A stretch of 64,000 nucleotides of DNA. Source: Candidatus Saccharibacteria bacterium (lineage in GTDB: Bacteria; Patescibacteriota; Saccharimonadia; Saccharimonadales; Saccharimonadaceae). The position numbers and the translations under genes were made by a program. Within the stretch, counting starts at the first letter, position 1. Every line of letters starts with the position of its first letter. Location of the stretch: positions 700,113 to 764,112 of the forward strand of contig CP066696.1 of the NCBI GenBank assembly GCA_016432585.1, read 5' to 3'. Shown here piece by piece: positions 49,052-53,147 of this stretch. The notes under the pieces were generated by a model, which was given only the letters and a program-made list of their open reading frames with translations, did not search any database and was not told the origin of the DNA.

Positions 49052-49657
49052 TCACGCCCAGGTGCCGCTTTCCAGTACGCCCTGGATGATCTCGGCCGAC
49101 AGGCCGCCCAGACCAGGGTATGCGGTGACGAGAAGCTGCTTGTCCGGAACGGACCACAGGTACTTCGCCACCTCACCGCACTGCTGCTGGTAGAACAGGC
49201 CGGCGTGGCCGTCCAGCGTGAACTGGGCCGGCCCCTCGATCGCTCCGAGCGTCGTCCCCTCACAGGGAGTCTCGGCCCACAACTTCAAGGGGTCGTCGTC
49301 GCCCGACGCCTCCTTCCCCTCGCTCGTGGCGAGATCGAAGAAGATGATCTGGGGGCAGCCCGCAGTGTTGACGCAGGTCACGACGTCGGAAAACGGCGCG
49401 ACACCGACGCCACCCTGCGTGCCCTCCCACGTCACAGGACGCGGGAGGGTCAGCTTGTCGAACAGCGTGATCGTTTCGCTCCCTTCGAGCGACGCCGTGT
49501 TCGCCACGGGAGGCTGAAGGGTGCTGCTGGCAACCGGCGGCGTTGCGGATGGAGTGGTCGGAGCATCGTCCCCGCCCCTCAGGGCGAGACCGGCAAGCCC
49601 CAGGCTTCCAGCCGTCACGACAGCCACGACCAGCGTGATCCATCGGGTTCGGTTCAT
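49052..49657 (-). CDS. GC-rich cassette 3: unknown exported 201-residue protein
   Basis: Not recognised. An N-terminal signal or anchor (MNRTRW then a helix at about 7-27) is followed by a Pro/Thr/Ser/Ala linker (about 30-55) and a globular domain. The domain has four Cys (VTCVNTAGCPQ, ETPCEGT, QQQCGEV) that could form two disulphides. It ends GVLESGTWA. It reads like a secreted actinobacterial protein in composition. The frame is strongly C/G-ending while frr and tsf are not. It has its own promoter (49720-49748) and terminator. There is no convincing SD; the leader carries several small hairpins. The antisense 151-codon frame is a GC3 artefact. Confidence 0.75.
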   Translation of the reverse strand: MNRTRWITLVVAVVTAGSLGLAGLALRGGDDAPTTPSATPPVASSTLQPPVANTASLEGSETITLFDKLTLPRPVTWEGTQGGVGVAPFSDVVTCVNTAGCPQIIFFDLATSEGKEASGDDDPLKLWAETPCEGTTLGAIEGPAQFTLDGHAGLFYQQQCGEVAKYLWSVPDKQLLVTAYPGLGGLSAEIIQGVLESGTWA

Positions 49658-49791: not shown

Positions 49792-50388
49792 CTATTCGTT
49801 AACGCCAAGTTCAATTCGCTTAAACTGGCGAATAACGATGTTCTCACCAAGTTTTGCGATGTTTTCTTTAACGTAATCTTGAACGCTCATTTTGTCGTCA
49901 AGAATATATGGTTGAGTCATAAGCACCTGCTCGGCAAAATGCTTTTTAACCTGACCTTCAACGATTTTTTCGGCCATTTCGGCAGGCTTGCCTTCGTTCT
50001 TGATACGCTCGAGGGCTTCTGTTTTGAAACGCTCGACTTCCTCGGCTGGAATATCAGCTTCGGTAACGTATTTTGGGCTCATCGCAGCAATCTGCATGGC
50101 GATCTCGTGTGCCAATTTCTTGAAATCATCAAGACGAGCAACGAAATCAGTCTCACAGTTAACTTCTACAACAACACCGATACGGCCGCTGTGGACGTAG
50201 CTTTCAATCAAGCCTTCGCGAGCTTCGCGATCGCCTTTTTTCTCGGCACGAGTAAGACCCTTCTTGCGCATAGCTTCAAGCGCCTTGTCAAAATCACCGT
50301 CAGCTTCAACAAGAGCGTTCTTGGCGTCGGTAAGACCAACGCCGGTTAGTTCTTTTAGCTTTTTGATGTCTTCGATTGAAACAGCCAC
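49792..50388 (-). CDS. tsf: Elongation factor Ts
   Basis: Nucleotide exchange factor for EF-Tu, 198 residues from GTG 50388 (MAVSIEDIKKLKELTGVG). The TDVGF-like block is here KLKELTGVGLTDAKNAL, with GRIGVVVEVNCETDFVAR and HEIAMQIAAMSPKYV following. It is a short EF-Ts with one core subdomain reduced, as in other small genomes. GAGGAG lies in the rpsB 3' end, 1 nt apart from it, so the two are translated from one mRNA. Confidence 0.96.
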   Translation of the reverse strand: MAVSIEDIKKLKELTGVGLTDAKNALVEADGDFDKALEAMRKKGLTRAEKKGDREAREGLIESYVHSGRIGVVVEVNCETDFVARLDDFKKLAHEIAMQIAAMSPKYVTEADIPAEEVERFKTEALERIKNEGKPAEMAEKIVEGQVKKHFAEQVLMTQPYILDDKMSVQDYVKENIAKLGENIVIRQFKRIELGVNE

Positions 50389-50389
50389 T

Positions 50390-51097
50390 TTATTTCTCCT
50401 CTTTTTTAACAGCAACAGCACCTTCAGCGACGGCTGCAACAAAGTAATCTAGTAGTAGTTGAACACCCTTAATTGCATCGTCGTTACCAGGAACAACATA
50501 GTCGATAGGAGTTGGGTTCGCGTTTGTATCAACCAAACCAACAACAGGAACGCCAAGAGTTTTAGCCTCTTTAACGGCGTTTGCGTCGGCAATGATATCA
50601 AGCACAATAACCGCGCCTAGTTTGCCATTAAGGTCTTTGATACCACCGTACTTGATGTTAAGTTCGTCGATTTCCTCTTGGAAACGCTGAACCTCAAGCT
50701 TGTTGTAGCGCTTTTCAAGGTCACCTGTCGCCATTCGCTTTTCAAGATCTTTGAGCTTCTTGATTTGCTGAGTAACAGTGTTAACGTTGGTAAGCATACC
50801 ACCAACCCATCGTTCGGTAACGAATGGCTGGCCAGCTTTTTCAGCTGCAAGACGTACGATGTCCTTGGTTTGCTTTTTTGTTCCTACGAAAAGAACTTGC
50901 TTGCCACTTGCCGCAACTTTCGTAAGGAATGGAAGTGCTTTTTCAAGACCTTCTACTGTTTTTGTCAGATCAATAATGTGACTGTCCTGACGTTTGCTGT
51001 GAATGTATGGCGCCATTTTAGGGTGCCAACGGCTCGTTTTGTGTCCAAAGTGAACACCAGCTTCGAGCAATGCCTTAATATCGACATCTACTGCCAT
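50390..51097 (-). CDS. rpsB: 30S ribosomal protein S2
   Basis: uS2, 235 residues from ATG 51097 (AVDVDIKALLEAGVHFGHKTSRWHPKM). LFVGTKKQTKDIVRLAAEKAGQPFV and RWVGGMLTNVNT are canonical. AAGGAG is 9 nt upstream; longer frames extend into the structured leader. In E. coli S2 represses its own rpsB-tsf mRNA; the hairpin at 51120-51156 may have the same purpose here. Confidence 0.97.
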   Translation of the reverse strand: MAVDVDIKALLEAGVHFGHKTSRWHPKMAPYIHSKRQDSHIIDLTKTVEGLEKALPFLTKVAASGKQVLFVGTKKQTKDIVRLAAEKAGQPFVTERWVGGMLTNVNTVTQQIKKLKDLEKRMATGDLEKRYNKLEVQRFQEEIDELNIKYGGIKDLNGKLGAVIVLDIIADANAVKEAKTLGVPVVGLVDTNANPTPIDYVVPGNDDAIKGVQLLLDYFVAAVAEGAVAVKKEEK

Positions 51098-51119
51098 GGG
51101 TTTGAACTCCTTGTTCCTC

Positions 51120-51156
51120 ATCCACATCCCTGAAGGTTCAGGAGTTTGATGTGGAT
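51120..51156 (-). promoter_or_regulatory. rpsB leader hairpin with anti-SD sequence
   Basis: Two stacked stems: 9-bp ATCCACATC/GATGTGGAT (51148-51156 with 51120-51128) and 6-bp CCTGAA/TTCAGG, separated by a 5-nt bulge. The bulge plus inner stem hold AACTCCT on the minus strand, which is exactly complementary to AGGAGTT of the rpsB SD some 30 nt downstream. The two pairings are mutually exclusive. Confidence 0.55.
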
Positions 51157-51184
51157 TGTGTCATTAAAAATTGTTACATCGATG

Positions 51185-51214
51185 ATTATATCACACCACC
51201 CCTATAAATGCCAA
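51185..51214 (-). promoter_or_regulatory. rpsB-tsf promoter
   Basis: Minus-strand TTGGCA (51209-51214), an 18-bp spacer and TATAAT (51185-51190), giving an 80-nt leader. Confidence 0.72.
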
Positions 51215-51298: not shown

Positions 51299-51538
51299 AT
51301 GCGTCCACGCATTCGCATTCTGCTGGGTATCGTCGGGCTACTGCTTGTCGCCACGGCGTCGGGAACGATCGGCTTCGGCATCGCTCTACAAAATGAAGTA
51401 TGCGAGGCCCAGAAGTCCACCTGCAACGGTAATCTTCCGATCTTCGTTGTCGCCTACGTAGTAAGCGTCATCGCCTACCTGGCGGCCGGAGTCTGTGGAT
51501 TCCTCTCGTTGCGGTTCTGGGGTGGTGATACACCCTAA
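51299..51538 (+). CDS. GC-rich cassette 4: unknown 79-residue two-helix membrane protein
   Basis: Not recognised. Basic start (MRPRIRI), helix 1 (about 7-30), an outside or inside loop with two Cys (NEVCEAQKSTCNGN), helix 2 (about 48-70, with one Cys) and a short tail (WGGDTP). The Cys pair could be a disulphide if the loop is outside. GAGGGAG/AAGGG lies before ATG 51299. Codons are C/G-rich compared with rpsB and rpmE2. It has its own promoter and double terminator and no co-transcribed partner. Confidence 0.72.
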   Translation: MRPRIRILLGIVGLLLVATASGTIGFGIALQNEVCEAQKSTCNGNLPIFVVAYVVSVIAYLAAGVCGFLSLRFWGGDTP

Positions 51539-52000: not shown

Positions 52001-52036
52001 AAAAAGAGACCGCATCCTTAGGGGCGGTCTCTTTTT
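52001..52036 (+). terminator. rpmE2 terminator
   Basis: GAGACCGC/GCGGTCTC stem extended by A5/T6 arms. The prfA promoter begins directly after it (TACAAT at about 52040-52045). Confidence 0.9.
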
Positions 52037-52076
52037 TGTTACAATAGATACATCAAGCCAGCAAGCAAGGAGCTAT

Positions 52077-53147
52077 ATGCCAAAAATCAGTTTGAATATC
52101 GAAGAACTTACCGCCGAGAAAGCGACATTGGCTGATTTTCTTGCATCGCCTAGCGCCTATAACGACCCAGATTACAGCGCAAAGAATAAGCGCTTTACCG
52201 AACTTGAGGCAATTATCGAAAAGGCGACGCTTCGTCGCACGCTCGAAAGCCAGCTTCAAGAAGCCAAAGATATGATGGGCGGTGGCGACGAGCTGGCAGA
52301 ACTCGCCAAGGCCGAGGCAGCCGAAACAGAGGAGCGCCTTGCAAACCTGGAAGATGAGCTATTTATCATGCTTGCGCCCAAAGATCCAAACGACGAAAAA
52401 AACGTCATTATCGAAATTCGTGCCGGCGCCGGTGGCGACGAAGCCAGTCTGTTTGCAGCAGAACTCTACCGCATGTACCTTCGCTACTGCGAGGCGCACA
52501 GCCTTAAAACCGAACTTATCAGCGAAAGCGCAAACGATACGGGCGGCTACAAAGAGGTTGTTTTTAGCGTAAAGGGCGACGCGCCGTACGCCCAGCTTAA
52601 GTTTGAGTCTGGCGTTCACCGTGTTCAGCGTGTTCCCGCCACCGAATCTCAAGGCCGCATTCACACAAGTACCGTTACTGTTGCCGTTCTTCCCGAGGCC
52701 GAGGAAACTGATATCGAGATTAACGCGAGCGACCTAAAAATCGACGTTTATCGCGCCGGAGGCCATGGTGGTCAAAGTGTTAACACCACCGACTCAGCCG
52801 TACGTATTACCCACCTCCCTTCTGGGCTTGTTGTTACAAACCAAGACGAAAAATCACAGATTAAGAACAAAGATAAAGCCATGAGTGTCTTGCGCAGCCG
52901 CCTTTTACAGCAAAAAATCGACGCCGAGCAGTCAAAGCTTGCTGCCGAACGCCGCAGTCTTATTGGATCGGGTGATCGAAGCGAAAAAATCCGCACCTAT
53001 AACTTTCCGCAAGACCGTATCACCGATCACCGTATCGGCTACTCTCGAAGTGGTATTCCCCAGGCTATGAACGGCAATATCGAAGATTTAATCGAGCATT
53101 TGCAAAGCTATGAGCGCGAACTTGCAGCCCAAAGCGCCAGCAATTAA
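52077..53147 (+). CDS. prfA: Peptide chain release factor 1
   Basis: RF1 reads UAA and UAG; 356 residues. The PxT tripeptide is PAT in [15 protein letters not shown] and GGQ is in [15 protein letters not shown]. The N-terminal helical domain and the C-terminal [10 protein letters not shown] block are complete. AAGGAG is 6-7 nt before ATG, with a TACAAT about 30 nt upstream. It overlaps prmC by 38 nt; PrmC methylates the Gln of GGQ, so the pair is functionally matched. Confidence 0.97.

Follow-up and report, generated by a model that had tools for sequence, protein, structure and literature searches.

What does the leader of rpsB do in Saccharibacteria, and is it related to the rpsB leaders that are already known? 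The question came from an original prediction for one 64,000-nucleotide stretch of a Candidatus Saccharibacteria genome (here called the window). It held that the leader forms a two-tier hairpin, that this hairpin and an anti-Shine-Dalgarno pairing exclude each other, and that the RNA may be a new class of ribosomal protein leader.

The rpsB locus and its leader

In the window, rpsB lies on the minus strand at 50390..51097 and encodes ribosomal protein uS2 (235 aa; PF00318, 1.4e-80), with its AUG start codon at 51097-51095. The next gene of the operon is tsf, for elongation factor Ts (49792..50442, minus strand; PF00889, 2.8e-34). The rpsB promoter, also on the minus strand (51185..51214), is of the extended -10 type, TTGGCA-N18-TATAAT with a TG before the -10, and has 11 of 12 consensus matches. 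From this near-consensus promoter we expect transcription to start near 51178, so the leader should be about 80 nt long, the length originally given. Of 219 leaders, 120 have a -10-like hexamer 6–7 nt ahead of the conserved leader start GTAA, and 145 have one at 4–9 nt.

Two ORFs that flank rpsB-tsf, 49052-49657 (minus strand) and 51299-51538 (plus strand), do not match Pfam and look like recent imports; the stretch of the former has 59–65% GC vs 44–50% around it. The donor is possibly an actinobacterial host, but this is a guess. Divergent from rpsB is rpmE (bL31, PF01197; 51672-51992, plus strand), followed by an ORF that reads as peptide chain release factor 1 (52077-53147, plus strand). 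The strong hairpin with a T-run between these two, at about 52002-52051, is probably a terminator and has only chance-level Rfam matches.

Read from 5' to 3' on the minus strand, the leader begins with a conserved box, UUUUUAAUGACACA (51157..51170), which adjoins the stem P1, is kept in our alignments A1 and A2, and is a candidate protein contact. The 5' strand of P1, AUCCACAUC (51148..51156), is followed by a single A and then by AACUCCU (51140..51146). This is the anti-SD, which sits in the loop of P1 and is the 5' strand of the pseudoknot. Next come GAACCUUCAGG and the 3' strand of P1, called P1', GAUGUGGAU (51120..51128). A small upper hairpin, CCUGA-ACCU-UCAGG (51129..51142), has its CCU in common with the anti-SD. 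A conserved linker (L3), GAGGAACA (51112..51119), for which 8 nt is the commonest length, leads from P1 to the Shine-Dalgarno (SD) sequence AGGAGUU (51105..51111), the 3' strand of the pseudoknot, and after CAAACCC comes the AUG. Of 200 dinucleotide shuffles, 199 fold less stably than the leader does alone (z -3.0).

AACUCCU and AGGAGUU make seven perfect Watson-Crick pairs, the exact complementarity that had been predicted. Their duplex is calculated at -7.9 kcal/mol in the window, about equal to the pairing of the SD with 16S rRNA (-7.8). Because the loop of P1 contains the anti-SD and the SD follows 3' of P1, the arrangement is an H-type pseudoknot; in the window, P1 has 9 bp, L1 has 1 nt, the pseudoknot stem has 7 bp and L3 has 8 nt. 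In the 182 leaders that we parsed, L1 is mostly 0–3 nt and L3 mostly 8–9 nt. P1 can thus coexist with the anti-SD pairing and has no need to open, and the original idea that the hairpin must open before the SD can be sequestered is not supported.

The proposed mutual exclusion does apply to the small upper stem, which takes up the CCU of the anti-SD and is the sole competitor of the pseudoknot. As for the two tiers, the 9-bp stem is P1, but the upper stem (CCUGA/UCAGG) has 5 bp and not 6, since 6 bp would leave a loop of 2 nt. It is predicted in 57 of 105 leaders vs 31.6 ± 4.1 by chance, so it is commoner than in shuffles although not universal, and it is absent from the consensus fold of related leaders. 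RNAalifold, which cannot represent pseudoknots, returned P1 only when applied to alignment A2.

The leader stands only at rpsB and both of its helices covary

For the class Saccharimonadia, we took the leaders of 219 unique S2 genes, which were picked by S2 protein searches and not by RNA, and counted changes on an S2 protein tree with 219 tips. To measure covariation in the pseudoknot, we used UCCU as the anchor in the loop and AGGA as the anchor in the SD; neither depends on complementarity.

All nine pairs of P1 have double changes and 96% of the cells are paired; the covariation score is 0.718 vs 0.223 ± 0.011, and slid versions all fall far short. In the pseudoknot, the second pair is C-G in 60 leaders, U-A in 46 and A-U in 42, which makes 148 of 186 Watson-Crick, compared with 58.1 ± 6.1 after shuffling. 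The third pair is Watson-Crick in 136 of 186 (78.8 ± 6.2 shuffled) and the fourth in 82 (65.4 ± 5.9). On the S2 tree, double changes from one Watson-Crick pair to another occur 7 times at the second pair and 10 times at the third. Branches on which both sides change number 8 and 14 for these two pairs, where 2.0 and 3.9 are expected. Covariation of both pairings had been set beforehand as the test of the prediction, and both pass it.

We built a covariance model of the Saccharibacterial leader, R1, from 24 leaders. It has exactly one match per locus at 100 of 100 related loci, and the match is always the rpsB leader, although the seed included some of these leaders. Its one match in the window's own genome is also the rpsB leader. 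The predicted conservation upstream of rpsB is thus found at every one of these loci. At genes other than rpsB, R1 found nothing apart from a weak match in genome G001 (E 0.36; the E-values of R1, and of a second model R2 described below, are rough as both models were built in this analysis).

Among the 33 SD-bearing ORFs of the window, the SD complement is 7 nt long for rpsB and 5 nt for the next longest, and 30 ORFs have none. In 214 Saccharimonadia leaders, a perfect SD complement of at least 5 nt is present in 75%, compared with 11% when the leader is shuffled and 48% when the leader is taken from another genome. A perfect Watson-Crick complement of at least 6 nt that includes the SD core is present in 61% of the same leaders vs 4% shuffled. 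In 49 leaders from other Patescibacteria, a complement of 5 nt is reached in 61% vs 16%.

Relation to the rpsB motif and t44

The rpsB motif (Meyer et al. 2009, PMC2704228) is known in Proteobacteria, Cyanobacteria and Firmicutes. It consists of P1, a pair of variable stems, and a pseudoknot in which the junction pairs with a stretch 3' of P1 (PMC2704228), and its E. coli version is t44 RNA (Rfam RF00127). In E. coli, uS2 represses rpsB-tsf via its own rpsB leader; the ribosome binding site (RBS) is outside of the operator, so the mechanism of repression is stated to be unclear (PMC10931766). Beyond Patescibacteria, our comparison draws on E. coli, the model in Rfam and the motif as published.

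The Saccharibacterial leader resembles the rpsB motif and t44 in many respects. Both stand directly upstream of rpsB-tsf, both have a long P1 and a pseudoknot between the interior of P1 and a stretch 3' of it, and both have ACACA before P1 and GAGG-A-AA after it. Small variable upper stems at the top of P1 may be a further likeness. The ACACA box also precedes P1 in other Patescibacteria. The order of elements is common to the two: box, P1, anti-strand, upper stem, P1', GAGG linker, pseudoknot strand. At the linker site between P1 and the SD, the window has GAGGAACA and E. coli has UGGAGGCAUAA. The main difference concerns the 3' strand of the pseudoknot. In most leaders of Saccharimonadia, and in many from the other Patescibacteria that we examined, this strand coincides with the SD; by our own reading of the sequence, after the layout in PMC2704228, the E. 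coli strand is ACCCC, about 12 nt upstream of the SD. On this point the original prediction was right that the leader differs from the gammaproteobacterial one. The Saccharibacterial leader is also shorter (about 75 nt).

Searches with the models gave results at several levels. No Rfam family reached threshold in the window, RF00127 had no match in the window at all, and it was found in 0 of 287 Patescibacteria genomes at E <= 0.1. Its gathering threshold of 44 bits was not reached in any Patescibacteria genome searched, but below the threshold its best matches lie in register at two rpsB leaders from other classes (L337, 22.4 bits; G303/L372, 20.6 bits). The 20.6-bit leader is also matched independently by R1 (as L305) with 29.8 bits and a rough E of 0.001. 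When R1 is applied to the E. coli leader, its top match is the t44 element and it aligns UAA-ACACA, P1 and GAGG-A-AA, although the match is weak (4.0 bits, rough E 1.1). The bridging covariance model R2, from the mixed Patescibacteria set A5 with trimmed interiors, is no improvement: it scores 4.3 bits on E. coli and aligns the 5' box alone. Leaders from other Patescibacteria classes are intermediate, with the layout CACAC-P1 ... P1'-GGAGGCAUAA-GGAG (L322 and L327, and similarly L336), for which the E. coli counterpart is CACACGUAUC ... GAUACGUGGAGGCAUAACCCC.

Because of these intermediates, and because RF00127 and R1 match the same leader, we take the leader to be a divergent variant of the rpsB motif and not an unrelated class. 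We do not file it as RF00127 because RF00127 itself fails to recognise it. The suggested new class of ribosomal protein leader was too strong, given that the element order and flanking motifs match the rpsB motif (PMC2704228) and t44.

We infer common ancestry with E. coli t44. It is unlikely that Patescibacteria have an independent S2 leader that converged on the rpsB motif instead of descending from it. That RF00127 misses all 287 genomes, and the window too, is in keeping with convergence, as are the mere 4 bits of R1 on E. coli. But convergence would have to contend with the two in-register matches of RF00127 in other classes, with the fact that R1 matches one of those same leaders, and with an element order that is identical from the box through to the pseudoknot strand.

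Two other comparisons help to place the variant of the rpsB motif that we describe here. In the rpsO (uS15) pseudoknot and alpha-operon (uS4) leaders of E. coli, a ribosomal protein also traps a pseudoknot that involves the RBS (PMC10931766), but the protein, fold and gene are different and the working principle is all that they have in common. The 20 ribosomal leaders of Eckert and Weinberg 2020 (PMC7247131) are likewise lineage-specific ribosomal protein leaders found by covariation. They include no rpsB/uS2 leader from Patescibacteria, and rpsB appears only in the Bacteroidia L13 row of Table 1. In the papers searched here, we found no ribosomal protein leader for the large bacterial group in which this putative S2 leader occurs. 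The putative version of the S2 switch with the SD as pseudoknot strand is previously undescribed, and it looks simpler.

A putative S2 switch and its variants

We think it probable that the leader is an autogenous translational switch of rpsB(-tsf), a divergent rpsB motif in which S2 stabilises a pseudoknot that hides the SD. P1 would be present in both states. In the ON state, the small upper hairpin would hold the CCU of the anti-SD, or the CCU would be free, and the SD would be open to 30S subunits. Nested minimum-energy folds fit this state: among 186 leaders, 110 have the CCU bound up within P1 and 105 have an SD core that is free throughout. In the OFF state, the loop of P1 would supply the anti-SD for pairing with the SD, and the resulting H-type pseudoknot would hide the SD, which in the window (AGGAGUU) is the 3' strand of the pseudoknot. 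Surplus S2 would bind the P1/pseudoknot fold and stabilise the OFF state, and less S2 and EF-Ts would be made. The likely contacts of S2 would be the ACACA box and the A-rich linker GAGGAACA. We infer S2 as the ligand, and the direction of control. Since the SD is a pseudoknot strand in most Saccharimonadia, direct occlusion would be the simplest mechanism.

There are natural variants of the leader. Nine leaders have no anti-SD loop (L149, L156, L158, L161, L162, L170, L199, L283 and L291). They sit together on the S2 tree, with a low branch support of 0.1, and keep a short P1 along with the 5' box; their 3' ends, AAGGAGAAGGUAG, are nearly identical. Judging from these sequences, the group is a natural loss of the pseudoknot. 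In L142, L183, L232 and L248, the 3' strand of the pseudoknot is seemingly upstream of a second SD-like sequence, which is nearer to the E. coli layout. Given these two sets of leaders, covering the SD does not account for the whole function in every case; P1 and the boxes may be the conserved ligand site, with SD occlusion as the commonest read-out.

We also observed two additions to the basic leader. Outside the window's own family, 22 leaders of the class (for example L142, L183, L196, L225, L227 and L237) have the conserved nonamer CCGUGYAGG in an enlarged upper stem between the anti-SD and P1', where 0 are expected by chance. In L303, L304, L311, L314, L337 and L340, all from other Patescibacteria classes, the linker from P1' to the SD contains an extra hairpin, such as UCCGACGAAUGUCGGA, and the anti-SD is kept.

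The pseudoknot could be real and yet have no S2 ligand, tuning rpsB translation constitutively as a weak start or as a check on free 30S subunits in competition with the 16S anti-SD. The near-equal energies of the pseudoknot and the SD:16S duplex in the window would suit such tuning. We nevertheless consider it rather improbable: from Saccharibacteria all the way to E. coli, the ACACA box and the GAGG-A-AA linker show more conservation than pairing requires, the clade without an anti-SD retains P1 and the boxes, and the related E. coli leader responds to S2 (PMC10931766). That a chance complement to a purine-rich SD lies next to an unrelated hairpin, with no regulation at all, is extremely improbable and we reject it, for although the CCU/AGG core is invariant and hence uninformative and leaders swapped between genomes often still have a 5-nt complement, the double changes that many branches have outside of the core and the covariation of P1 refute it, and both the conservation at all 100 loci and the lack of a 7-nt complement at any other gene of the window argue against it.

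In E. coli, uS2 repression needs bS1. A missing bS1 as the cause of a different mechanism in Saccharimonadia is unsupported, since the S1 model finds a bS1-like homologue in 30 of 31 genomes. These align over about 335 of the 516 positions of the S1 model and have open frames of roughly 350–400 aa. Saccharimonadia thus have a short bS1-like protein, as at G000:C1:790980-791993 and in relatives.

We see the case as evenly balanced for much of Patescibacteria having this form of the rpsB motif, with the SD as a pseudoknot strand and S2 repressing by plain occlusion. It may be the older form.

If the S2-stabilised switch is true, S2 feedback would extend to a large bacterial group. It would also be a direct version of S2 control, as the regulatory pseudoknot and the SD are the same bases and have covaried many times. 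In E. coli the RBS lies outside of the operator (PMC10931766), whereas here the SD is within the pseudoknot. The RNA is compact, at about 75 nt, which suits structural work, and the clade without an anti-SD and the leaders whose pseudoknot lies upstream of the SD are natural variants with which the mechanism may be dissected.
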